This document shows positions 1-31,573 of a stretch of 34,068 nt of DNA, in pieces. Numbering within the stretch: the first letter of the stretch is position 1; each line of letters opens with the position of its first letter. The DNA is from Amoeboaphelidium occidentale. Its lineage: Eukaryota > Aphelidiomycota > Aphelidea. The position numbers were made by a program, and so were the translations under genes. The DNA lies in the NCBI GenBank assembly GCA_023515795.1, contig JALGPX010000076.1, forward strand, positions 465-34,532, given 5' to 3'. The notes under the pieces were generated by a model. That model did not search any database. It was not told the DNA's origin and saw only the letters and a program-made list of their open reading frames with translations.

Positions 1-1579
1 CGTAATCATCTGTTAGAGTAAACGTTTTTGGTCGGATCATGTTTGGACACAAAGTGACACCATCTGAGTAAAACGAGAATCCAAACTTCCTATAAGATCC
101 AAGACTTTCAAAATACTGAACGTTGATGCAGCGTTTGAACCAATACTCCTTAACACCTTCTGCTTTAAATTTGACTAATGAAACAGGAAAGTTTTCTTCT
201 TGAAACGGATTGTGTTCATTCTTGGCGTATTTTAAAAGTTCATAATAACCACCAGTAGAGTAAAGAACGTTTTCACAGCGGCCCTTTGTCATCGGAAGGA
301 GGTTGAACAAGCGAAGGCCCTTTCCAGTTCTTCGTTCTTCTTTTCTAGACTCGGCATCACTCTGGAAATTATTATAGAAGTCTTTCTGTATTTGGTGCAT
401 GACACCGAGATAATCACAAAAATGTATCTTCATTTTCTTAGAGTCTAAAGACAAAGGCCCAAGCAGAAACAAAACATCATTAGTGACTCTTGAAACTGCC
501 GCCAAAGACTTGAAAAATAGAGCATGATCAAACTTAGTAACTTTTTTAATTAATTTGTGCAATTTATCAGGAAAAGTTGGCTCTGTCTTAAGAATCTTCT
601 GAGCAAATTTAATACAACTTATAATATAGTCTGCTACGTGCCCGCTGCGAGTGTTTGCCTTGAAAGCTTTCGGTATAATGCATTCCAGTTTCCACATTAT
701 CCATCGTTTCAACTTCTTCGGAACATTTATCTTGACATGCGTATTTGCATTAGCCTCATATTGTCTTGACACACCAGCCAGCAATTGAGAAAAGCCCTTT
801 AAACTTGGAATATTTTAAGAATTTAATTCACTTTGTTCCGCGAAATCTCTATACAAAGCAGCCAAAAGTCTACCGTCAATTGCTTTTTTAGAGTCTTTTG
901 AGTTTTGGATGATACCACCAGATGCAACTATATTAAAGCATTTGTGCAACATTCCGTCTGAGCTTTTGCTTAAGTTTGGAATTCCAAGATTATTTTCTAA
1001 ATAGTATAGAGCAACATAATTAACAAATCGAGATGCCCAAAAGCGAACAATTGAAACTCTTTGAGAAATCTCTTCAAGAGCCGCCTTAACCCCAACAAGC
1101 TCTCGGTTCTCAAGACAAAGTCCAGTGTTGACGCCAACTTTGATGGAATACGTTTCAGTGCCGTTCGTGACATCCTCGTTAATTGCCAAATCCTCAATAT
1201 CATAAGGCAGAAGTGGTACAGTACCACCTTCATGCAAAGGAACAACAAGAATGTCAGAAAAAATGTCAACATCATTATAATTATTATTCAAATCCTTCGT
1301 AAATAAATCCCAAAGAGAANACGTTTCAGTGCCGTTCGTGACATCCTCATTAATTGCCAAATCCTCAATGTCATAGGGCAGAAGTGGTGCAATTCCACCT
1401 TCATGCAAAGGAACAACAAGAATGTCAGAAAAAATGTCAACATCATTATAATTATTATTCAAATCCTTCGTAAATAAATCCCAAAGAGAACTCTTTTCAG
1501 TAGATTCTAAAACACCAACATCATTATCAATATCCATAATATCCTCATCAATGACCATTAAATCCACGTCTGCTTCCAT
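1..1579 (-). pseudogene. Fanzor-like (eukaryotic TnpB-type) protein, N-terminal half, copy A; interrupted and incomplete
   Basis: A minus-strand frame begins at ATG 1577-1579, meets TAA at 815-817, and then remains open in the same frame for 271 codons to the window edge. Before the stop come an acidic N-terminus and a helical block containing FWASRFVNYVALYYLENN. After it come IPSLKGFSQLLAGVSRQYEA, a basic helix, LRLFNLLPMTKGRCENVLYS, and a strand pair ending GFSFYSDGVTLCPN. This order (helical N-domain, SQLL helix, LLP motif, then F-x-F-x-x-DG just ahead of the nuclease core) matches what I know of Fanzor1/OrfB-like proteins. The RuvC catalytic residues and zinc ribbon would lie left of the window, so nuclease identity cannot be confirmed. 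A single N at 1320 creates an apparent internal 57-codon duplication. No intron explains the stop: the only nearby GT...AG is 28 nt and would break the frame. It could instead be an unrelated multicopy transposon ORF. Confidence 0.55.
1150..1490. repeat. Head-to-tail 170-bp duplication around a single N, probably an assembly overlap
   Basis: Positions 1150-1319 and 1321-1490 align base for base over 170 bp with only a few substitutions and no indels, separated by one N at 1320. The duplication lies inside the Fanzor-like copy A frame and repeats the block around SLWDLFTKDLNNNYNDVD. Copy B encodes this block once. The simplest reading is that two contig ends covering the same stretch, from two alleles or two copies, were abutted with one N. 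Confidence 0.85.
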
Positions 1580-1862
1580 TATGAGAGCAGATTATTACAC
1601 TCAAATAGAACTACATGTCAGTTATTCGCCTGGAAAACTTACGCCACTCACAAAAGGATCTCGCTGCGTAAAACAACCGTGTTTGGAACTTTTGCGGTCA
1701 CAAGATTCGAATTAAAGTCGAAATTAATTCGGAATTACAAATGAGAATGGAAGAATAAGGATGGTTATCACAAATGAAAAGCTGTTCAACTCTCTATTGG
1801 AGTTTCAGCTTGATAGCGCTACGTTAAGCATTCTCATGGTGGAAGTGGTTTCAAATAGATAT
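1580..1862 (-). repeat. Conserved leader upstream of Fanzor-like copy A
   Basis: About 283 bp directly upstream of the copy A start codon match 3046-3328 upstream of copy B closely, with scattered substitutions. The similarity stops abruptly beside a shared stretch, ggtttcaaatagata. Past that point copy A enters a diverged version of the neighbouring repeat family. This is what the outer end of a mobile element would look like, with the leader holding the promoter and terminal sequence. I see no convincing terminal inverted repeat or target-site duplication. Confidence 0.6.
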
Positions 1863-2142
1863 CGAAAACAGTTTCAATGCGATACTCCTCAAACTTACGA
1901 ATATTAATAAACAAGATGCTCAAATAGTGACTTGAAACAATTTTATTCTAATTGTTTCGAGAATCTTTTCTTCCTTGATTGAATCAGCGCGATCGCGATC
2001 AGAACATGAGGCCATATGGTGTTTCCCGACAACTTGCGCCAATTCTGATGAATGATTCTGAAAGAGCCTTAAATGAAGTTTTATAAGCGTGAACGTCAGC
2101 TTTCCGGTGTCAGTCTTGGTCATGCTACTGCATGATATTACT
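1863..2142. repeat. Diverged copy of the ~0.76-kb repeat family (middle part)
   Basis: The stretch 1863-1974 resembles 5320-5460 and 6700-6860 in order (cttacgaat..., then cttgaaacaa against tctgaaacgcaa, then cttgattgaatcagcg against cttgactgaaacagag). Block 1975-2142 recurs almost identically at 3798-3965 and more distantly at about 5450-5600 and 6845-7000, where it shares cccgacaactt and gatgattctgaaag. The short minus-strand ORFs here (for example 1920-2153) look like no known protein and I do not call them genes. Confidence 0.6.
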
Positions 2143-2563
2143 TTCCGAAACACAGTTCTACAACACTGAGAGCGTTTCCGCCGGTTAATAAAGATGCTGA
2201 TATAGCAAAGAGCGCAATCGTATCACGTATATATTGAATAGACTGATTTCACTATACTTTACAGCTTGTTCAACTGATTTTTGGGAGAAGTTTGAACTTT
2301 GGCGCTGGAAGTTGAAACAAACCTGCATAACTCACCCAGTGAAGCGCCAGATCGTTAAAATTAAGCGATAAGAACATAGTTGAGACTATTGGAACATTGC
2401 TACTATGACACGGAAAGATTTATTACAGTTGGATACGATTTCTAAAATCCAATAGAGGAGCACGTAATTCGATCATTTTAATTTCAATTAAGCAAAAATG
2501 TGTATCATTATCGAAGACTGATTATTTTCTTTGTTTTAGAATAGATTTTAATGAATTGGAGCG
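2143..2563. repeat. 421-bp repeat, copy 1
   Basis: This block runs from ttccgaaacacagttctac to ttttaatgaattggagcg, immediately before the N at 2564. It is the same length (421 bp) as the blocks at 3376-3796 and 3966-4386 and nearly identical to them. It is non-coding in all frames as far as I can read. The family is absent from the related ~0.76-kb repeats at 5179-5940 and 6619-7338, so at least its later part could be a nested insertion into that older unit. Confidence 0.85.
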
Positions 2564-2564
2564 N

Positions 2565-3045
2565 CTATAGTAAAGCATTTGTGCAACATTCCGTCTGCGC
2601 TTTTGCTTAAGTTTGGAATTCCAAGATTATTTTCCAAATAGTATAGAGCAACATAATTAACAAATCGAGATGCCCAAAAGCGAATAATAGAAACTCTTTG
2701 AGCGATCTCTTCAAGAGCTGCCTTTATCCCAGCAAGCTCCCGGTTCTTATGACAAAGTCCAGTGTTTACACCAACTTTGATGGAATACGTTTCAGTGCCG
2801 TTCGTTTCATCCTCATTAATTGCCAAATCGTCAATGTCATAGGGCAGAAGTGGTACAGTACCACTTTCATGCAAAGGAACAACAAGAATGTCAGTAAAAA
2901 TGTCAACATCATTATAATTATTATTCAAATCCTTCGTAAATGCATTCCATAACGAATCCTCAACAGTAGATTCTAAAACACCAACATCATTATCAATATC
3001 CATAACATCCTCATCATCGGCCATTAAATGCACGTCTGCTTCCAT
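2565..3045 (-). pseudogene. Fanzor-like protein copy B, N-terminal fragment cut by a gap
   Basis: The frame begins at ATG 3043-3045 and encodes about 160 residues homologous to the start of copy A: the same acidic N-terminus, LNNNYNDVDIF, SIKVGVNTGLC and FWASRFVNYVALYYLENN. It ends where the single N at 2564 joins it to the unrelated 421-bp repeat. Numerous amino-acid substitutions against copy A, many conservative, show a true paralogue rather than a re-sequenced copy. It has the DVDIF block only once. The rest of the gene is missing from this position, either because the copy is truncated or because the assembly joined the wrong contigs. Confidence 0.6.
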
Positions 3046-3374
3046 TATTAGAGCAGATAATTACACTCAAATAGAACAACATGTCAGTTATTCGCCTGGA
3101 AAACTTACGCCACTCACAAAAGGATCTCGCTGCGTAAAACAACCGGGTTTGGAACTTTTGCGGTCACAAGATTCGAACCAAAATTGACATTAATACGGAA
3201 TTACAAATGAGAATGGAAGAATAAGGATGGATATCACAAATGAAAAGCTGTTCAACTCCCTATTGGAGTTTAAGCTTGATAGCGCTACGTTAAGCATTCT
3301 CATGGTGGAAGTGGTTTCAAATAGATAGTCAAAGACGTTGAATTTGTTGAGTTACGTCTTTAAATAAACATAAG
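3046..3374 (-). repeat. Leader upstream of Fanzor-like copy B plus short unique tail
   Basis: The segment 3046-3328 matches the copy A leader at 1580-1862. The tail 3329-3374 has no match that I see in the window and ends at the N at 3375. Conservation of the leader along with the ORF supports both belonging to one mobile unit. Confidence 0.6.
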
Positions 3375-3375
3375 N

Positions 3376-3796
3376 TTCCGAAACACAGTTCTACAACACT
3401 GAGAGCGTTTCCGCCGGTTAATAAAGATGCTGATATAGCAAAGAGCGCAATCGTATCACGTATATATTAAATAGACTGATTTCACTTTACTTTACAGCTT
3501 GTTAAACTGATTTTTGGGAGAAGTTTGAACTTTGGCGCTGGAAGTTGAAACAAACCTGCATAACTCACCCAGTGAAGCGCCAGATCGTTAAACTTAAGCG
3601 ATAAGAACATAGTTGAGACTATTGGAACATTGCTACTATGACACGGAAAGATTTATTACAGTTGGATACGATTTCTAAAATCCAATAGAGGAGCACGTAA
3701 TTCGATCATTTTAATTTCAATTAAGCAAAAATGTGTATCATTATCGAAGACTGATTATTTTCTTTGTTTTAGAATAGATTTTAATGAATTGGAGCG
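3376..3796. repeat. 421-bp repeat, copy 2
   Basis: A full-length copy bounded on both sides by single Ns (3375 and 3797), so this contig consists of nothing but the repeat. It is nearly identical to 2143-2563 and 3966-4386. Its placement in the order shown here is not reliable. Confidence 0.85.
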
Positions 3797-3797
3797 N

Positions 3798-3965
3798 TTG
3801 ATTGAATCAGCGCGATCGCGATCAGAACATGAGGCCATATGGTGTTTCCCGACAACTTGCGCCAATTCTGATGAATGATTCTGAAAGAGCCTTAAATGAA
3901 GTTTTATAAGCGTGAAAGTCAGCTTTCCGGTGTCAGTCTTGGTCATGCTACTGCATGATATTACT
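3798..3965. repeat. 168-bp block flanking the 421-bp repeat, second copy
   Basis: Nearly identical to 1975-2142 and, like it, directly adjoins a full 421-bp repeat. The two together form a 589-bp unit present at 1975-2563 and 3798-4386. Confidence 0.8.
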
Positions 3966-4386
3966 TTCCGAAACACAGTTCTACAACACTGAGAGCGTTT
4001 CCGCCGGTTAATAAAGATGCTGATATAGCAAAGAGCGCAATCGTATCACGTATATATTGAATAGACTGATTTCACTTTACTTTACAGCTTGTTAAACTGA
4101 TTTTTGGGAGAAGTTTGAACTTTGGCGCTGGAAGTTGAAACAAACCTGCATAACTCACCCAGTGAAGCGCCAGATCGTTAAACTTAAGCGATAAGAACAT
4201 AGTTGAGACTATTGGAACATTGCTACTATGACACGGAAAGATTTATTACAGTTGGATACGATTTCTAAAATCCAATAGAGGAGCACGTAATTCGATCATT
4301 TTAATTTCAATTAAGCAAAAAGTTGTATCATTATCGAAGACTGATTATTTTCTTTGTTTTAGAATAGATTTTAATGAATTGGAGCG
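3966..4386. repeat. 421-bp repeat, copy 3
   Basis: Full-length copy with intact flanks on both sides within one gap-free contig (3798-4603). It is therefore the best guide to the natural context: the 168-bp block, then the 421-bp repeat, then the 217-bp block. Confidence 0.85.
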
Positions 4387-4603
4387 AAGTATCATGAATA
4401 TGAGGTCCACTTTGAAAATGGGCTACCGTGAAACAACACCTAAACGTTACAGACACCAATGATTTTGTTATCAATCGATAGATCATAAAGTCAATTCGGC
4501 GGTTATGGAAGGTCAGACTAAAATAGTTAGAACTGTTAAAGATATCTCGCTAAAACCACCTAGTCCACTTATATGTGCTGCTTATGCCACGAAGCTGAAA
4601 CTC
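4387..4603. repeat. 217-bp repeat block, copy 1
   Basis: Follows the 421-bp repeat directly and recurs, more diverged, at 4962-5178. Both end in cacgaagctgaaactc. The part around gatatctcgctaaaaccacc is related to gatatctcgctgaaaccact at about 7277 and to 5880, the ends of the older repeat units. Confidence 0.75.
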
Positions 4604-4604
4604 N

Positions 4605-4961
4605 AAAGAGCGCAATCGTATCACGTATATATTGAATAGACTGATTTCACTATACTTTACAGCTTGTTCAACTGATTTTTGGGAGAAGTTTGAACTTTGG
4701 CGCTGGAAGTTGAAACAAACCTGCATAACTCACCCAGTGAAGCGCCAGATCGTTAAACTTAAGCGATAAGAACATGGTTGAGACTATTGGAACATTGCTT
4801 CTATGACACGGAAAGATTTATTGCATTTGGATACGATTTCTAAAAACCAATAGATGAGCACGTAATTCGATCATTTTAATTTCAATTAAGCAAAAATGTG
4901 TATCATTATCGAAGACTGATTATTTTCTTTGTTTTAGAATAGATTTTAATGAATTGGAGCG
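4605..4961. repeat. 421-bp repeat, copy 4, missing its first 64 bp
   Basis: Matches the last 357 bp of the 421-bp repeat (equivalent to 2207-2563) with a few substitutions. It begins at the N at 4604, so the truncation is probably a contig edge rather than biology. Confidence 0.8.
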
Positions 4962-5178
4962 CAATATCATGAATTTTTAGTCCACTATGAAAATGAGCTA
5001 TCGTGAAACAGCACCTAAACGTCACAGACGCCTATAATTTTGCTATCAATCGATAGACAATAGATTAAAAACGACCATTATGGAAGGTCAGACTAAAATA
5101 GTTAGAACTGTTGAAGATATCTCGCTAAAACCACCTAGCCCACTTATATGTGCTGCTCATGCCACGAAGCTGAAACTC
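4962..5178. repeat. 217-bp repeat block, copy 2
   Basis: Same length as 4387-4603 but visibly diverged, with clustered substitutions around the middle. It continues without a gap into the ~0.76-kb repeat at 5179, which shows the native order of these blocks. Confidence 0.75.
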
Positions 5179-5940
5179 GAGCTTCGAGCCCTTTGAGTAT
5201 TCCTATTACGATATCCATGCTTCTTATACCTCTATTCGTCTTGGTTGTTACGTTTTCAGCACATTTCGATGTTTGATTCGATCTTCGCTCGCTCTTGCTC
5301 GAGATTTGCTGCAATATCAAACAGCCCCCAAAAAAGCTACCATTCTTACGAATAAAATCAAGTGGCTTAGGGAATAAATGATACTTTGAATTCTGATGGT
5401 CTGAAACGCAATTTCTTATTAACAGTCTTCATTTTCTCTTATTATTTTATTGAAACAGCGCGACTTCAAGTTTCAGGTGGCGCTGATTTTTGCGTCCCAA
5501 TAACTTAAGCCAATTCTGATGGATGATTCTGAAAGGTCATCATGAGAAGTTTCCTATGCGCGAAATTCAACTCTCAAGCGTGAGTCTTGAGAATGCTATT
5601 GCCAATTGTTTCTCTGATTGTGACCTTTCGTATAGTTAGTGTGGGTTTAGCTCCAAAATAGCATATAGAATGTTTTACCTGTCAAAGATAATCAAATCGA
5701 ATGATACGGAAAAGATAGCCATGAAGTCAGACTCTGATTTTTCGCATGATATCCAACACCAGTCTGAAACAACACCGCCAACGCGCTACCGTTTCCCGAA
5801 CTTTAAGCGTCATTTGACAGAATATTAAACAAAGACTCACGACTATGTCTCCTAGAGGAAGCGCTATAGAGCTGGCTCGGATATTTCGCTGAAACCACTT
5901 TTGGCGCATAAATGATGCGCTTACGCTGTGAAGTTGAAAC
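5179..5940. repeat. ~0.76-kb diverged repeat unit, copy 1
   Basis: A unit running from just after gctgaaactc to gaagttgaaac that aligns with 6619-7338 along its length, with substitutions and small indels. For example ttatacctctattcgtc occurs at 5224 and 6619, and ttacgaataaaatcaag at 5346, 6456 and (one change) 6742. It has no sustained reading frame and no RNA gene that I recognise. The small ORF at 5727-5948 on the minus strand is not convincing. Confidence 0.7.
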
Positions 5941-6454
5941 TTTGGCATAGAATTCTAGACCATCTACACTACGGTAAACAAGCTTGTCTTCAAGAAACGA
6001 AAAGATATCACAGAGGACTTAATAGTTTGATATAAAAAGATAAGCGTGGAGCTACTATTTTTTCCTTCTGCTTAAGATAAAAATGTGTAGGCACGCTTAT
6101 GATGACAGTTAGACAGAGATTAGAATGTAGGACGAGTATTAACGACAAGTACGTGGAAGTACGAGTAAATGCCGCTCTTCACTGTCCGTTCTTCTATGCG
6201 AAGTAAGTTATGGAATAAAGTACAGAAACACTTTGTCCAAGGCAAATCGCAAAGCGCAAAAAGAAAAGATCTGTGTGAGTTTCGGTTGATATGATTGCTT
6301 CTTTAAAGTTTTTATTACAGCTATGCAATAAGACATGTAAATAAAGACTCTACACACGTCCAACAACAAACTGTGTCGAGATATCAGCACGTTCTATCGA
6401 CCAAACAACTCAAAGTGCTGATTGCAGTTCTGATTGGGGCAAGATTTCGTCTCA
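5941..6454. other. Non-repetitive spacer, nothing recognised
   Basis: About 510 bp that match no other part of the window by eye, ending at the N at 6455. Only short unconvincing ORFs occur (6208-6390 minus is the longest). No tRNA, rRNA or structured-RNA signature is apparent. Confidence 0.5.
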
Positions 6455-6455
6455 N

Positions 6456-6617
6456 TTACGAATAAAATCAAGTGGCTTAGTGTATAAACGATAATTTGAA
6501 TTCTGATGGTCTGAAACGCAATTTATTACGAACAGTCTTGATTTTCTCTTATTATTTTATTGAAACAGAGCGACTTCAAGTTTCAGGTGGCGCTAATTTT
6601 TGCGTCCCAACAACTTT
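6456..6617. repeat. 162-bp fragment of the ~0.76-kb repeat between two Ns
   Basis: Aligns without indels to 6742-6903 and to 5346-5507. It is an isolated fragment bounded by Ns at 6455 and 6618, and the next contig contains the same stretch again, so it is most likely a redundant allelic or paralogous contig. Confidence 0.8.
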
Positions 6618-6618
6618 N

Positions 6619-7338
6619 TTATACCTCTATTCGTCTTGGTTGTTACGTTTTCAGCACATTTCGATGTTTGATTCGATCTTCGCTCGCTCTTGCTCGAGAT
6701 TTGCTGCAATACCAAACAGCCCTCAGAAAAAGCTACCATTCTTACGAATAAAATCAAGCGGCTTAGTGTATAAACGATAATTTGAATTCTGATGGTCTGA
6801 AACGCAATTTATTACGAACAGTCTTGATTTTCTCTAATTTCTTGACTGAAACAGAGCGACTTCAAGTTTCAGGTGGCGCTAATTTTTGCGTCCCGACAAC
6901 TTTTGCCAAATCTGTTGGATGATTCTGAAAGGTCATCATGTGAAGTTCCCTATGCGCGAAATTCAACTCTCAAGCGTGAGTCTTGAGAATGCTATTGCCA
7001 ATTGTTTCTCTGATTGTGAACTTTCTTATAGTTAGAGTGTGTTTAGCTCCAAAATAGCATATAGGGTTCTTTACTTGTCAAAGATAAAGGAATAGAGTCA
7101 TACGATAAGGATGTTCCAGTAGTCACCCATCGAGTTTGTGCATGAGATCAAATATCAGTCTGAAACAACACTACTCGGACGCCATCAATTGCCACAGTTT
7201 GAGCGTCATTCAACAGAAAAATAAAGCTAGACTTAAGTATGTGACTTCTACGGGCAGTACTTTACAACTGGCTCGGATATCTCGCTGAAACCACTTTTGG
7301 CGCATAAATGATGCGCTTTAACAATCAAGTTCAAACTC
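6619..7338. repeat. ~0.76-kb diverged repeat unit, copy 2
   Basis: Homologous to 5224-5940 from its first base; the first 45 bp of the unit are missing at the N at 6618. It ends near atcaagttcaaactc, after which a further diverged unit start appears to follow (tattaccatacccgttcttagc against tattacgatatccatgcttctt at about 5200). That gives a tandem-like period of roughly 0.76-0.78 kb. Confidence 0.65.
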
Positions 7339-7354
7339 TGTAATTACGCTTTTA

Positions 7355-7465
7355 AAGAAATTCTATTACCATACCCGTTCTTAGCATCTCATTTATCGGC
7401 TTAGTTGTCGCTCATTCAAAACCTTCGTATCAATGAAGCTCAAAAGAAACACCTGATCGACTTGT
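7355..7465. repeat. 111-bp repeat, copy 1
   Basis: Nearly identical (one clear substitution) to 7993-8103, from aagaaattctattacc to ctgatcgacttgt. It resembles, more distantly, the start of the ~0.76-kb unit at 5190-5290. Confidence 0.85.
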
Positions 7466-7991
7466 TTCAAAGTCTCTCAGCGCATACACTGCATCATCAT
7501 TGGAGCAAGAAAATACTGAACAATGTTTCTATGTTCGTCATCAGTAAGAGCTAACTATGCTTCAAGCCATTTCAATCTAAACTCGTTCAATTCTAGCGAA
7601 CCATGTGTCTGCAGTCTCAGCACCCAAATGTACACTGCTCGAACTTCTGCGCATGTATACGGCGTACAATATCCTCCAAAGGAACGCAAGAGTGTAAAAT
7701 TTCAGCAGTAGAAGCAACATAACCGATGGTAAAGCGACTTTGTGATATACTCTTACTAAATCTCCATCAAGCCTTTGAGTAAACTTTCTCTGAATGCTAG
7801 TTATTTTTCTTCTTAACAGCAACGCTTCCTTCAGTATAATTAACTTCTGCAAGCATATATTAAGATGAGCGATTTACAGAAGTAAAGAAGCGTACGTATA
7901 GTAGAGCTACCCTAAGTATAAAAGTATAAAAGTAAGAGAATCAAAGCAAAAGTTGAAGAACAGTCACTATAACGAATAAGTGGAAGCGCAG
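7466..7991. other. Spacer with no supported gene
   Basis: About 525 bp ending at the N at 7992. Two overlapping ORFs on opposite strands (7523-7711 plus, 7577-7852 minus) are short, lack recognisable domains and mirror each other. I see nothing else supportable here. Confidence 0.5.
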
Positions 7992-7992
7992 N

Positions 7993-8103
7993 AAGAAATT
8001 CTATTACCATAACCGTTCTTAGCATCTCATTTATCGGCTTAGTTGTCGCTCATTCAAAACCTTCGTATCAATGAAGCTCAAAAGAAACACCTGATCGACT
8101 TGT
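7993..8103. repeat. 111-bp repeat, copy 2, at the start of the long gap-free contig
   Basis: Duplicate of 7355-7465 directly after the last N (7992). From here to 34068 the sequence has no N and no further copies of these repeats that I can see, so this is the boundary between the repeat zone and the gene-rich region. Confidence 0.85.
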
Positions 8104-19410: not shown

Positions 19411-22005
19411 ATGTCCTACAGGTCAAGATACCCTTATGATGATGACAGGCGGAGGGAATATAATGATGACAGAGGAGCTGGGCGGAGTCGTTATCCACCC
19501 ACAGACAGACCTCCGTTCGACGAAAGAATGTACAAAAGCAGGGATCGTTACAGAGAAGATGACCGTCTGAGGAGAGAATCTTTGGATTACCGGACTGATA
19601 GTCGCTATGCCCCAAGTCAGGAGAGATGGTCAGACAGACGAGCTCCACCACCCAGGACACAATCACCTGATGATTATCACAGACGCTATTCAGCTAGGGA
19701 CTTCTCTTACGAGCCTAGACATCCACAAGCACCAGAAGTTGAAGTCATTAGCAAAGTACCACAGAAAGCTGCAGAGCAACTGAAGCTGCCCAGAATAGTG
19801 GAGGATGCTCAAGACTGGAGACTTACTTATGATCCCGAACTGGACAACAATACACCCAAAGAAAAGCGAAAGCCTTTACAAAAATTACGTACTGAAGAAT
19901 CTGTTAAAGCCTCTGTGGAATATCCGAAGGATCCCAGGCTGCATAAGAATTCTAGCGCGGCGATTGAAGTGAAAAATGATCGCAGGAAACTGTTGACAAA
20001 TGACTTCAAAGCAACGAACTTTCAAATGGATTCTCATTGGATAGGCAGAGTCCCTGATAGTGCTGTTTTCGTTTCTGGTATCCCCGTTCATAAATCCTCA
20101 GATGATATTCACCAATTCTTTGATTTAAAGATTGAAGAGCTGAAGCAGGATCATAATTTTAAGGTGGATGTTGTATATTTAGTTACCGACGAGAGTCTCA
20201 ACTGTGGATATGCGCGTGTTCTATTTAAGTTTCTTCATGAGAGATCTCAACCCAAAGCTGAGCTCCAAGACCCAAAGTATCTTGAAAAGAAGTGGAGAAT
20301 TGGTAAAATGATTTCAAGTCAAAAATCTGTAACGCTTGATGGCGCGATTCTCAAGGTTGTATTTGATCCATTCGGTCATGGAATGCACAAGATCATCGGT
20401 GTTGTTAATAATGAAAAGGCAAAACGATTGAAACTTCAAAAACAAAGAGAACTTGAACAGAAGCGTAAGGAAAAGGAACAAAAAGAATTGTCTAGGCCAC
20501 CGTTAACAGATCAGTGGTCTAATGATACTTCGCGGGAAAGAGTCACGAAGCCGAGAGAATACCCTGTGAAGAAAGAGGTCGAGGAATCACAAGAATCCTT
20601 ATTAAAGAAGGCATTCTTGCCACTAAGAAACTATCCTACAATCAAAATTTCAGCAAAAAGCATTCCGGTATCGGTTATCGGCATACGCTCTGTAAAAGAT
20701 TTCTTTCGAAATTACGAGCCAAAGTTTGTAACTTATGATGAGAATTATCACTATATTCAGTTTCGCTCCGAGTATAAAGGCAAAAGATGCTTTGAAATAT
20801 GTAATGGTAAAGATATTGAGAGGTTCAGAAACGTTGGAATGACTTATGATGAGGCGTTCATGAAACCTTTGCCTGCAAAAAGAAAGGCTTTTAGCTCTAA
20901 AGATGACATTGTAGAACATGTAAGGAGATCAATGAAGAGTGAACTAGGAAACAAAGTTTTAAAGGATATTCGAGACAAGACTATTTCCGAGACCGTTCAT
21001 GATTTCGTTGAGGCGTACCTTGCAGAACAAGAGCTTAGACATCGAGAGGAAGAAAAAGAAAGGATAAGAATGGAACTGGAGCGGGACCTCCAACAATCTA
21101 AGAAACGAAAACACATTGTCGTTAGTTCAGATGATGAGTATGACGCAAATAAGAGCGAACAAGAAGAAGAAGCTTTGCCCGAAATTGAAACGACTAAGCT
21201 GCCCTTTATCGAACAAATTCAACATTTTCTTGGCAACCGCAAGCCTAATTCTATTCCTGAGTATGATGGCGAAGATTTGTCGTACTTGGTTCAATTATTT
21301 AAGGCAAAAAGATATTTAGACCAACCTGTGAAGAAGCACTCCAGCTGTTCGGCTAGAACGGAAGGATATTACACAATTTCTCCTCTTGAAAAGGCGGAAT
21401 ATCTTTCTCAAAGAAACAGGCTGAAACTTAATAGCCCCATTAATCCTGATGCTTTCTTATCTGGTGCAATATCATCACGAATGACAAGGAACGATCAAAG
21501 GAAACTTCGTGTTGGCTTTGAAGAAGTCAAACAGATTACAAACTCTGATCTCTTGAAATTTAATCAACTGAAAGGAAGGAAAAAGAAGATTAAATTTGCA
21601 AAGTCACACATTCATGACTGGGGTTTATTCTTAATGGAGAACGTGGATGCTGGTGAAATGGTAATCGAATACATTGGTGAGGTGGTAAGACAGAAGGTCG
21701 CAGACCATCGTGAGAAGAAGTATGAAAAGATGGGTATTGGAAGTAGTTATCTGTTTCGAATGGATGAAGATCATATTGTTGATGCCACAAAAATGGGTAA
21801 CTTGGCCAGATTTATCAATCATTCTTGCGATCCGAACTGCATTGCAAAAGTTATTACTGTGGGCAATGAGAGCAAAATTGTTCTTTACGCAAAGCAGGAT
21901 CTAAAAGTTGGTGAAGAAATTACTTATGATTACAAATTTCCCATTGAAGACGAGAAAATACCATGTCTATGCGGAGCAGAAAGTTGCCGGGGAACACTTA
22001 ATTAA
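19411..22005 (+). CDS. SET1: Set1, histone H3 lysine-4 methyltransferase
   Basis: 864 residues, intronless. In order: an Arg/Asp/Tyr-rich disordered N-terminus (1-110), an RRM (about 217-330, opening [12 protein letters not shown]), a Lys/Glu coiled linker, a second RNA-binding-like Set1 domain (about 408-480, around [17 protein letters not shown]), a charged stretch, an N-SET region before the catalytic domain ([12 protein letters not shown]), and SET plus post-SET (about 727-864). Catalytic and cofactor motifs are intact: HDWGLF, NHSCDPN (803-809), EEITYDYKF (around 836-843) and the post-[13 protein letters not shown] zinc site. Set1 works in COMPASS to methylate H3K4 at promoters. An ATG at 19322 lies in another frame and is not used. 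The stop is only 20 bp from that of the convergent peptidase gene. Confidence 0.95.
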
Positions 22006-25361: not shown

Positions 25362-26186
25362 TTAATTTAAGTACCGTCTACACTTTTCTGCGCCACAGTG
25401 ACATGGTATCTTTTCATCCTCAATAGGAAACTTGTAGTCATAAGTTAGCTCTTCACCGGGTAAAATATCACGTTTGGCATAGATGACAATCTTCTTCTCA
25501 TTCCCAACGGTGATGATCTTTGCTATGCAACTTGGATCACAGGAATGATTGATAAATCTCGCTTGGTTTCCACACTTTGTTGCATCAATTATGGAATTAT
25601 CGTCAATCTTGAAGAAGTAACTGCTTCCGATTCCCATTCTTTCGTATTTCTTTTCACGAAGATCAGCGACTTGTTGTCGGATCTTTTCTCCAATGTACTC
25701 AATCACCATGTCTCTGGCTTCAATACGTTCCAAAGCGTACAGGCCCCAGTCATGTATGGGTGACTTGCCGAACTTCAGCTGCTTCTTTCTGGCTGCCAGT
25801 AAATTCAGCTCAACATTTTCATCTTCTTTTTCCTGTTTCAAGTTCCTTTGACATATTCTAACTCTTCTGGAGTAGACTTGGTGCGACATGACATCTTCGT
25901 CGTCAGAGGAATCATTGTGATCTTGCAACAATTCTTTGGGATCAGGCTTCGGTTTGAACTTCTGCTCTTCCTTGTCGTAAATTTGTACTCTTGCGCAAGT
26001 GAAATGTTCTCTTTCTTCCTGATAGTCACCTTGTGCAGCCAACATTACATACTGCAAGTCTTCGTTCTGTAGGTCATACAGGGCAGCTTCACTTGAATTA
26101 TCACTCTCTGCAATATCAGAGCATCCCGTAACCGTCAAGTTTCCATGCTGTTTATCAGGCGAGGAGAATGTTATTGTTGTGATCAT
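25362..26186 (-). CDS. Short Set1-like SET-domain protein (second copy of the Set1 catalytic module)
   Basis: 274 residues from ATG 26184-26186; an in-frame ATG at 26244-26246 would give 294. The C-terminal 140 residues closely match the SET plus post-SET module of the neighbouring Set1 ([42 protein letters not shown]). There is no RRM and no long linker; the N-terminus is acidic and short, with a remnant [11 protein letters not shown] entry into SET. Two changes at usually conserved sites are visible: NHSCDPS instead of NHSCDPN, and CRRYLN instead of CRGTLN at the post-SET end. It may be an active H3K4-type enzyme with new targets, or a degenerate paralogue. Confidence 0.88.
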
Positions 26187-28641: not shown

Positions 28642-30060
28642 ATGACGTTCACTGTTGCGATCGTTGGCGCTGGTTTAGTTGGGCCGCTATTGGCAATTTT
28701 ACTCGTGAAAAGGGGTGCGAATGTTTTGCTATTCGAGAAGAGGTCTGACCTGAGAAAAGAACCGACCTTGAAGGGTCGTTCCATTAATCTTGCGCTTTCT
28801 GTGCGTGGCATGGCTGCTTTGGAAGAAGCTGGTGTTTTGGATATTGTAAAGTCTGAGTTGATTATTCCAATGGCTGGTCGCATGCTGCATCTTGCAAACG
28901 GTAAAGAAGAATTTGTTCCTTATGGCGATTTTGGTGAGGCAATTAATTCCGTTGATCGCAGGAAGTTGAACGAGATTCTGTTGGATGAGGCTGAGAAGTA
29001 CGGCGATCAAGTTAAAATGTTCTTTGAACACGAATTGCTTTCATTTGAAGATGGAGACGCTCCTGGTAAAGGTGTCAAGTTGTCCTTTAAGTCCAGTAGA
29101 AGCGATGGTAATGAGTCTTCTGTGGTAACCTTCGATTGCGACTTGGTTGTGGGAGCAGATGGCGCATACTCGAGTGTTCGCAGGGAACTAATGAAAAAGA
29201 CCCGTTTCAACTACCAGCAAGATTACATTGACTGCGGCTATATGGAGCTGACTATTCCTGCGACTGAGAATGGCGAATATGCGATGCATTCAAACAGTCT
29301 TCATATTTGGCCTCGTAAGTCACACATGATGATTGCCCTGCCAAATAAGGACAAATCTTTCACTACGACACTGTTTCTTCCGTTCCATGTCTTCGAGTCG
29401 ATTAAAACACCACAGGATTTGCATCAATTCTTTCTGGAGAACTTTCCTGACTCTCTGCAGTACTTGCCGAACCTTGATAAGGAATTCTTTTCAAATCCTG
29501 TTGGTCCATTGGTTACTGTGAAATGCAAACCGTACAACTACAAAGATAAAGCTGTTATTATTGGTGATGCTTCCCATGCGATGGTTCCATTTTACGGACA
29601 GGGAATGAATTGTGGGTTTGAAGATTGTTTGGTTCTGACGGAAGTATTGTATCCAAAAACTGTTGGTAGCCTTCCTTTGCGCTCTTCGCCTTCTCAGGGG
29701 AAACAGCAAGATCTTATTGTTTTGCCGTTAGAACAAAGACTTGATATTTACACTGAGTTCAGACATCCGGACGCGACAGCTGTTTGTGATTTAGCATTAT
29801 ACAATTACTATGAAATGAGACACGGAGTTATCACTTTGTCCTATCGTGCCAGGAAGACTGTTGAATCGATTTTACACAGAATACTCCCTCAAACGGTGAT
29901 ACCTTTATACACAATGGTATCATTTTCACAAATAAGATACTCTGATGTTATCAAGAGATGGAAGAGACAAGGAGATCTGTTAAATGCTGGTTTATTCCTT
30001 ACAGCTGCTACAGTGGCAACATTAGGAGTATTTAACGTTCTCAAGAAGCTTAAAAATTAA
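28642..30060 (+). CDS. BNA4: Kynurenine 3-monooxygenase
   Basis: 472 residues from ATG 28642; the frame also has an ATG at 28576 giving 22 more residues, but the chosen start sits directly before the FAD-binding strand. FAD motifs are FTVAIVGAGLVG (GxGxxG at residues 9-14), DLVVGADGAYSSVR, and GDASHAMVPFYGQGMNCGFED. GRSINLALSVRG and DRRKLNEILLDEAE are KMO signatures. A C-terminal hydrophobic segment (AGLFLTAATVATLGVFNVL) fits the outer mitochondrial membrane anchor of KMO. The enzyme hydroxylates L-kynurenine with NADPH and O2 in tryptophan-to-NAD synthesis. Its last 39 bp overlap the convergent UCH37 coding end. Confidence 0.97.
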   Translation: MTFTVAIVGAGLVGPLLAILLVKRGANVLLFEKRSDLRKEPTLKGRSINLALSVRGMAALEEAGVLDIVKSELIIPMAGRMLHLANGKEEFVPYGDFGEAINSVDRRKLNEILLDEAEKYGDQVKMFFEHELLSFEDGDAPGKGVKLSFKSSRSDGNESSVVTFDCDLVVGADGAYSSVRRELMKKTRFNYQQDYIDCGYMELTIPATENGEYAMHSNSLHIWPRKSHMMIALPNKDKSFTTTLFLPFHVFESIKTPQDLHQFFLENFPDSLQYLPNLDKEFFSNPVGPLVTVKCKPYNYKDKAVIIGDASHAMVPFYGQGMNCGFEDCLVLTEVLYPKTVGSLPLRSSPSQGKQQDLIVLPLEQRLDIYTEFRHPDATAVCDLALYNYYEMRHGVITLSYRARKTVESILHRILPQTVIPLYTMVSFSQIRYSDVIKRWKRQGDLLNAGLFLTAATVATLGVFNVLKKLKN

Positions 30061-30924
30061 AGGAATGAAGTTGAAACGTCGTCTAGCATTCTCTTTTCTG
30101 ATCTTTTTCATCACATCTTCTTCTTGACGCAATTGTTCCTGAATGTGCTGCTTTTCAAAGTCACTTAGATTTGGAGTTAGTAATCTCTTTTGTAATTCTA
30201 CACGCGGGTCGGTAACAACAGCCATCAAATTGAACCTGATTTCTTGCTTTCCCTGATTTGACGCATTAACATAAGACTGAATCCTGCGCTCAATGACAGG
30301 CTTAACACTATCCAACCAGTTACCCTGATACTTCCCATGACTCAATGCAGTCTCTTGCAAACCGTCTAGCTCCAGTAATTCTCCTTGAAAGGGAATATAC
30401 GAAACGAAATGAAAAACATCTTCATCGCCGCTGTTGTTGTTTGAGTGCTGCCCTTCTGGATCGAATATGAACGCATCCTGTCTTGCAAAGGAATTATGGG
30501 ACGCACGAAGTGTATCGGAATTAGAAATAGCCAAACCCTTCATTTGAGCATCAAATTCCTGAGTAAATTCTTTAAATTCCTTCAAAGTAGAACCCAACTG
30601 ATCCTTAGGAACATTATTCAACAGAATATGCAACAGGGCCATCGTAGCGCAGGCATTTGTAATGATCTGATTAGCAAAGAACAACTGAGCATTATCATAA
30701 GGTGAACCTTCTCTAGCGATGCCTTTTGTGTACTTGAACAGGAAGATTAAACCATAAACATCCTTCTGTCCCATCTGCTGTAAATCCTCCAATGTGTACA
30801 ACTCCTTAACCCTCAGCCCATTAACCCCAAACATTTCAATCAGCTCTGTCCCTACGGCAGGATCGCTCTCAATGAGACACCAATTTCCGTTTGAGTTTGA
30901 ACCAGCAGCAGCACCAGTAGACAT
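30022..30924 (-). CDS. UCH37/UCHL5-type ubiquitin C-terminal hydrolase (Uch2-like)
   Basis: 300 residues from ATG 30922-30924; the longer in-frame start at 31003 would overlap cyclophilin and is unlikely. The catalytic tetrad is in place: Gln86 and Cys92 (ANQIITNACATMALLHILL), His172 (DVFHFVSYIPFQG) and Asp187 (LELDG), close to human UCHL5 Q82, C88, H164, D179. A helical C-terminal extension ends KENARRRFNFIPLIFKLLE, the UCH37 ULD region that binds Rpn13/ADRM1 on the proteasome. This subfamily is missing from S. cerevisiae but present in S. pombe. It lies 43 bp downstream of cyclophilin on the same strand. Confidence 0.94.
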   Translation of the reverse strand: MSTGAAAGSNSNGNWCLIESDPAVGTELIEMFGVNGLRVKELYTLEDLQQMGQKDVYGLIFLFKYTKGIAREGSPYDNAQLFFANQIITNACATMALLHILLNNVPKDQLGSTLKEFKEFTQEFDAQMKGLAISNSDTLRASHNSFARQDAFIFDPEGQHSNNNSGDEDVFHFVSYIPFQGELLELDGLQETALSHGKYQGNWLDSVKPVIERRIQSYVNASNQGKQEIRFNLMAVVTDPRVELQKRLLTPNLSDFEKQHIQEQLRQEEDVMKKIRKENARRRFNFIPLIFKLLENVKYS

Positions 30925-30967
30925 CTTATTATTAAAAAACTTGAATTTTTTTATTTTTTCACAGATG

Positions 30968-31573
30968 TTACAACTCCAGACGCAACCCTTCGCCTGAACC
31001 AACATAACCAGAATCTACAATTTTAACTTCAGCCTTTGGCTTATCTCTGTAATCTGTTGCAGACTTTTCAATTTTCTTGACGATATCCATGCCCTCCAAT
31101 ACACTTCCAAAAACAACGTGTCTCCCATCCAACCACGAAGTCACAACGGTCGTAATGAAGAACTGCGATCCATTTGTGTCTGGACCAGCATTAGCCATTG
31201 ACAGAAGCCCAGGGCGATCATGCTTCAATTGGAAGTTCTCATCTGCAAACTTTTCACCGTAAATGCTCTTACCACCGGTACCATCAAAGTTTGTAAAGTC
31301 ACCACCCTGTAACATGAAATCCTTAATGACCCTGTGGAATATGGACCCCTTGTAACCGTAGCCATTCTCATGAGTGCACAACTGTTTAAAGTTCTCTGCT
31401 GTCTTTGGGACAACTTCACCAAACAAACCAAAGACAATTCTGCCAGCTGCTTTACCTCCAATTGCTATGTCAAAGTAAACCTTGTCAGTAATAACAGGAC
31501 CCTGAGCATTTTTACTTAAAACAAGAGACGAAAAGAGCGCGAATAAGGATAATGCGAGTAATGTTAATTTCAT
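30968..31573 (-). CDS. Secretory-pathway cyclophilin (cyclophilin B type peptidyl-prolyl isomerase)
   Basis: 201 residues. A signal peptide (1-20, hydrophobic [15 protein letters not shown]) is followed by a complete cyclophilin domain: [40 protein letters not shown] with the catalytic Arg, [16 protein letters not shown], and [11 protein letters not shown] with the cyclosporin-contacting Trp. It catalyses Xaa-Pro isomerisation during folding in the ER. The C-terminus ends GLRLEL rather than HDEL or KDEL, so retention is uncertain; human cyclophilin B also lacks a KDEL. Divergent from glycogenin with 254 bp between the starts. Confidence 0.96.

Follow-up and report, generated by a model that had tools for sequence, protein, structure and literature searches.

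Fanzor is a CRISPR-like, RNA-guided nuclease borne on transposons. Fanzor proteins are recognised by a DPG motif, an alternative glutamate six residues before the zinc finger and a TDG motif in the WED domain, as set out in excerpts of PMC10711439. TnpB systems and the Fanzors tested take their guide from the flank immediately 3′ of the RNA scaffold, and the biological role of the Fanzor nuclease activity was stated as unknown by Saito et al. (both in excerpts of PMC10432273). Parasitella parasitica PpFz1 carries an extra FRI domain (excerpts of PMC11423790). A search of the open-licence PubMed Central literature returned no paper mentioning both Fanzor and aphelids. The left edge of the stretch of DNA analysed here (34,068 nucleotides, hereafter the window), from Amoeboaphelidium occidentale, an aphelid that parasitises algae, very probably holds the 5′ part of a Fanzor1 transposon copy, one of a multi-copy family that we call family A and most likely dead, as judged by comparison with sister copies on contigs C196, C40 and C153. 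The features of this region are:

2–814, minus strand: Fanzor1 post-stop segment, with the helical part and a probable WED domain carrying an SDG motif, ending just before RuvC-I (frame; 89–90% identity to C196, 89% to C40)
815–817, minus strand: in-frame TAA, only in the window copy (sense codons in the sisters C196 and C40)
818–1579, minus strand: Fanzor1 N-terminal segment from the ATG at 1579–1577 (start common to the C40, C153 and C196 copies)
1320, no strand: single-N contig join, an assembly artefact within the frame (1317–1501 repeats 1146–1330)
1580–2563, minus strand: non-coding 5′ region of the element, with repeats elsewhere in both window and genome (repeat comparison)
2565–3374, minus strand: second rendering or second copy of the element start, N-terminal coding part at 2565–3042 plus upstream sequence (single Ns at 2564 and 3375)
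3376–7340, minus strand: further stitched repeats of the element 5′ region, with Ns at 3797, 4604, 6455 and 6618 (repeat comparison)

The minus frame is open from 1591 to 818, and positions 1579 to 2 form a single frame of 254 codons, the TAA and 271 codons up to the window edge. The preliminary description of more than 520 codons interrupted by one TAA was thus confirmed on the letters, with a duplicated block included in the 254 pre-stop codons, as was the absence of a further stop in the last 271 codons, where about 19 would be expected at local composition (probability of none about 1.8 × 10−9, an i.i.d. estimate). The catalytic half would lie outside the window, as had been proposed: the frame stops just short of the RuvC domain, and the 464 bases to its left (C159:1–464), where the contig begins, are all N. 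The duplicated block (1317–1501) is 94.6% identical to 1146–1330 around the single N at 1320; the C153 and C40 copies, which have no N at that place, also lack the duplication, so 1320 is an assembly join, which lengthens the frame by about 57 codons. C196 likewise consists of pieces that overlap, and these comparisons identify the duplicated block as an artefact of assembly. The second N-terminal piece (2565–3042) may be one too, with 93% identity between 2565–2949 and 928–1312 and between 2783–3327 and 1317–1861. Eight single-N joins occur in the window (1320, 2564, 3375, 3797, 4604, 6455, 6618 and 7992), all in the first 8 kb and five in the first 4.6 kb, several with 93–99% similar sequence repeated nearby (window 1–8103). 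They are apparently overlapping contigs placed side by side, and any repeat reading in 1–8103 is suspect. The 5′ terminus of the element was not found within the window. Elsewhere in the window, 21577–21982 and 25385–25790 form an inverted stretch of about 70% identity shared by two genes on opposite strands (864 and 312 codons), by eye candidate SET-domain-like genes.

Searching the genome DNA with the window piece returned eight matching segments, its own included, on four contigs (C159, C196, C40 and C153). The window pieces alone gave no Pfam or NCBIfam match above cut-off and the post-stop piece no PDB match; the structure predicted with AlphaFold for the window piece and six relatives (pLDDT 40, pTM 0.29) was set aside. 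The presence of a RuvC domain, or assignment to another transposon family, was examined on the sister C196 instead, and the RuvC/zinc-ribbon half is present there, in support of the Fanzor-like candidate first proposed. The C196 copy continues into VGVDPGRKDLF, which holds the DPG motif at RuvC-I, followed by VVAYGDGSF, VDEFRTSKLCYHC, CPNC and HRDVNAS. This half matches PF07282 (Cas12f1-like / OrfB zinc-ribbon, TNB; E 3.8 × 10−12), and its two best PDB matches are Fanzor1 structures, SpuFz1 (8gkh, E 1.1 × 10−5) and PpFz1 (9cf0, E 4 × 10−5), with three features aligned, namely DPGR (in PpFz1), VDEFRTS, whose glutamate lies six residues before CxxC, and WxRD. The relocated RuvC-II glutamate, six residues before the zinc finger, lies within VDEFRTSKLCYHC in C196 and WEHRTSKLC in another subfamily, and is aligned to DEYKTSSVC of SpuFz1; near the canonical TnpB RuvC-II place, about 50 residues before the zinc finger, C196 has, by eye, YGDG rather than the canonical glutamate. 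The "FxF..DG" strand pointed out earlier may correspond to the TDG motif of the WED domain, which reads SDG in the window copy and TDG in other aphelid subfamilies.

The carrier is a repeat family with common 5′ and 3′ ends (defined from six and eight loci, respectively), as expected of a eukaryotic transposon. No intact family-A copy was found among those read; C196 itself is a patchwork of overlapping contigs with a frame change between WED and RuvC-I. An intact family-A protein would be an RNA-guided DNA endonuclease, its guide RNA would consist of the element 3′ end and the adjoining flank, and the protein would help the element to copy itself. In a database search with a protein of another subfamily, all six returned proteins were named A. 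occidentale; with an alignment as query, eight of nine were, among the best 7995 word-sharing candidates, the ninth (P0007) being a JGI record called transposase. That the element is instead a TnpB or a Fanzor2 of the IS607 type is very unlikely: PF07282 is common to all of these and the genome has a single resolvase match (PF00239, C172:89432–89881), but the two best PDB matches are Fanzor1 proteins, none of the family-A copies found lies on C172, no Y1 transposase (PF01797) match was found in the genome, the control having matched in 5 of 14, and an ordinary TnpB is excluded by the DPG motif and the alternative glutamate under the definition in the excerpts of PMC10711439. A Helitron replicase (PF14214) was not matched in the genome, nor in any of 14 controls.

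Three causes had been proposed for the stop, namely recent inactivation, sequencing error and read-through. Recent inactivation fits best, because dN/dS between the window copy and its sisters is low (0.21 over 339 codons and 0.28 over 149 codons of a second, overlapping contig piece for C196; 0.24 over 227 codons for C40) and because both of the other copies that were read across the stop position, C196 and C40, carry sense codons. On these comparisons family A is a family formerly under selection and now decaying. A base-calling or assembly error in an otherwise intact copy would account for a lone stop in about 525 codons, in a window whose eight single-N joins include several with overlapping, slightly different content. 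We consider this unlikely, however, since the other copies are damaged too (the frame change in C196; a frame break and a stop elsewhere in C40) and decay thus appears normal in this family. Nothing was found to support the third cause, read-through or a reassigned TAA, which is most improbable: the frame does stay open beyond the stop with coding-like divergence, but the long host-like gene frames of the window are open under the standard code and the stop is confined to the window copy.

The placement of the sister copies was examined at the right end of family A, found at eight loci in all (C196, C31, C103, C200, C142, C140, C94 and C24). Family A lies flush with one rare sequence before start codons. 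Seven of the eight right ends read (C/G)AG(C/T)TGA, then T7 or T8 and a version of ATAATAATAG: C94 and C196 carry it exactly, C31, C142 and C200 differ by one base, and C103 and C24 have additional ATA units. The eighth, C140, has diverged at this motif. An ATG follows the fixed word CAACAAAACGAYCGG by 49–65 nt at all eight loci, and the TGA by 17–33 nt at seven. The flanking ATG opens a host-gene-like frame at seven loci, as listed below, and only five codons in C142:

C31: mitochondrial uS14 (PF00253, PDB)
C140: DHDDS-like cis-prenyltransferase (PF01255, PDB)
C200: Xaa-Pro aminopeptidase, first exon of 37 codons (PF16189 in the second exon, PDB)
C94: 314-codon ORF, open to the end of the examined stretch, without Pfam match
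C24: 319-codon ORF, open to the end of the examined stretch, without Pfam match
C103: 112-codon ORF without Pfam match
C196: 129-codon ORF without Pfam match

The starts in C140 and C200 fall within about five residues of those of the PDB proteins, so these ATGs look like native start codons. At the left end, an A precedes GAA in four short copies, C196 and C153; C40 does not show this end. Both ends were compared in five family-A copies, which share inverted words of 4–6 nt only, with no terminal inverted repeat longer than 6 nt.

The last ~265 bp are better conserved than the 5′ part, with 2.3–5.3% versus 6.8–24.0% divergence in six pairs without C140, a range inflated in pairs with C142 by an N join (2.3–3.8% versus 6.8–14.2% in the three pairs without it), and 12.2–13.3% versus 18.7–24.9% in pairs with C140. 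Substitutions in the coding block are mostly synonymous (ten pairs pooled: pN 0.012, pS 0.117). Recombination with coding copies therefore accounts for the conserved 3′ end equally well, and we rejected the short copies as proof of an RNA gene. In RNA folding, three family-A 3′-end pieces were not above shuffles (z −0.8 to −1.3), and seven 3′-end pieces from four subfamilies supported no special fold (z −1.32 to +1.48).

Across the genome, the 19-mer TTTTTTATAATAATAGATG (T6 followed by ATAATAATAGATG) has 20 matches with up to three mismatches, compared with 10 for a reversed-pattern control; 12 of them, at 11 loci (C142 listed twice), have at most two mismatches and eight have three. The matches with 0, 1, 2 and 3 mismatches number 5, 6, 1 and 8, against i.i.d. 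expectations of 0.001, 0.06, 1.3 and 18 at G+C 0.40 (that of the window) or 0.004, 0.16, 3.3 and 43 at G+C 0.35. A 22-base form of the motif gave 11 matches and none in the control. Six of the 11 loci have family A directly abutting the motif on its left, C24 with its extra units falling outside the 11; the other five lack it:

C90: PF03162 phosphatase
C96: eIF3B (PDB match)
C169: U1A (PDB match); the 264 nt upstream belong to a repeat also present in C106
C145: prefoldin-like (PF01920 just below cut-off); an element of family S, described below, lies 19 nt away
C183: ATG opening 13 codons; a KOW-domain gene starts at the other end of the motif, on the opposite strand

Compared without gaps over the 54 nt that precede the motif, these five sites agree with the element 3′ end at only 11–19 positions, and so do not look like truncated family-A copies. 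An A precedes the T6 run in four of them and a T7 run in C90. The window, whose Fanzor copy has an unreadable 3′ end, does not contain the motif even with three mismatches allowed. The leader upstream of the probable ATG of the window gene at 30022–31014 (minus strand) has TTTTTTAATAATAAGATG, near the family-A motif and not identical to it; the motif may be part of a wider class of host leaders.

Fanzor-related sequence is abundant in this genome. In 11.3 Mb, a C-terminal probe matched at least 144 segments (scoring covered 138 of 180 candidates) and an N-half probe 68 (all 83 candidates scored), these counts being of segments, not copies, spread over several subfamilies; many are short elements reduced to the last part of the coding region plus the 3′ end. 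Family S (~465 bp; at least 74 segments, 40 of 66 candidates scored) has sharp ends, a hairpin-like left end with a TTTAT-type left flank, and only the last ~60 Fanzor codons (L070–L081; C145, C87, C37, C16, C11, C200, C151, C69, C156, C100 and C125), and several further loci share an internal deletion (query 1–254 plus 320–462). Of 12 family S copies read, ten have TTTATC or TTTATT flush left, right flanks differ, and the 150 nt beyond the right end hold no ATG that opens a frame of 50 codons. The S element in C145 (L096, 41050–42000) lies left of the start-codon motif in the opposite orientation to the gene. A fourth family, with the 3′ end TGATTACTTAAACTC (C183, C1 and C69; C35 did not show this end), has no 40-codon ORF starting within 250 nt. 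The idea that all Fanzor families here abut start codons was therefore rejected on account of family S and the fourth family. In family B (three copies), two lie ~55 and 76 nt before a possible host start. One NCBI protein of A. occidentale (P0005) joins a Fanzor frame to a PF08320 domain, which we take to be PIG-X, perhaps a gene model fused across an element upstream of a host gene. A further Fanzor-like match, C169:37563–38078, lies in a 4008-codon open frame.

The flush placement suggests that family A inserts site-specifically at the motif, possibly guided by the Fanzor's own RNA. Under the 3′-flank guide rule, the motif would form the beginning of each family-A guide, and the loci without the element would be targets. 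Family A might then act as a homing element, although we rate this as doubtful: one Fanzor ribonucleoprotein would recognise all remaining motif sites, the element would enter them through break repair, and short copies keeping only the 3′ end would spread as guide-bearing passengers. Several points speak against site-specific, RNA-guided insertion. The T7 tract could end a Pol III transcript; C140 abuts an ATG without the motif, no gene is evident at C142, other repeats lie beside two of the five unoccupied sites, and other Fanzor families in the genome lack start-codon placement. A transposase preferring the same site would also account for the pattern, and the motif might be the element's own end or have spread with the element by co-conversion. 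If homing were true, the native role of this Fanzor would be that of an RNA-guided homing endonuclease targeting a dispersed motif of the host; with a Fanzor flush with a rare host sequence, and occupied and unoccupied sites in one small genome, homing would be directly testable.

Among known systems, Spizellomyces punctatus SpuFz1 resembles C196 in the order of RuvC-II/III and zinc ribbon, the alternative glutamate, WxRD and a conserved C-terminal RP.xFSR block, although the sequence match is weak. PpFz1 shares the DPGR of RuvC-I and DEFRTS before the zinc ribbon but is longer (a 1259-residue construct, maltose-binding tag included). The window sequence is very probably a genuine but incomplete Fanzor1 copy, probably dead, which adds a member to a known family. 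One broken copy is in itself ordinary; what merits further attention is where its sister copies lie. SPu-1 has 33-bp terminal inverted repeats and putative TA duplications (excerpts of PMC3627910), in contrast to the short inverted words of family A. A likeness in copy structure exists with the Helitron2-like Fanzor1 elements CRe-1/2/3 of Chlamydomonas, which likewise have many 5′-truncated or internally deleted copies with intact 3′ ends (PMC3627910). Near the left end of the short family-A copies and family S, a hairpin-like sequence read by eye is a candidate counterpart of the Helitron2 5′ hairpin, which goes with asymmetric terminal repeats; CRe-1/2/3 insert after TTTT on the left, whereas family A has its near-constant sequence on the right.
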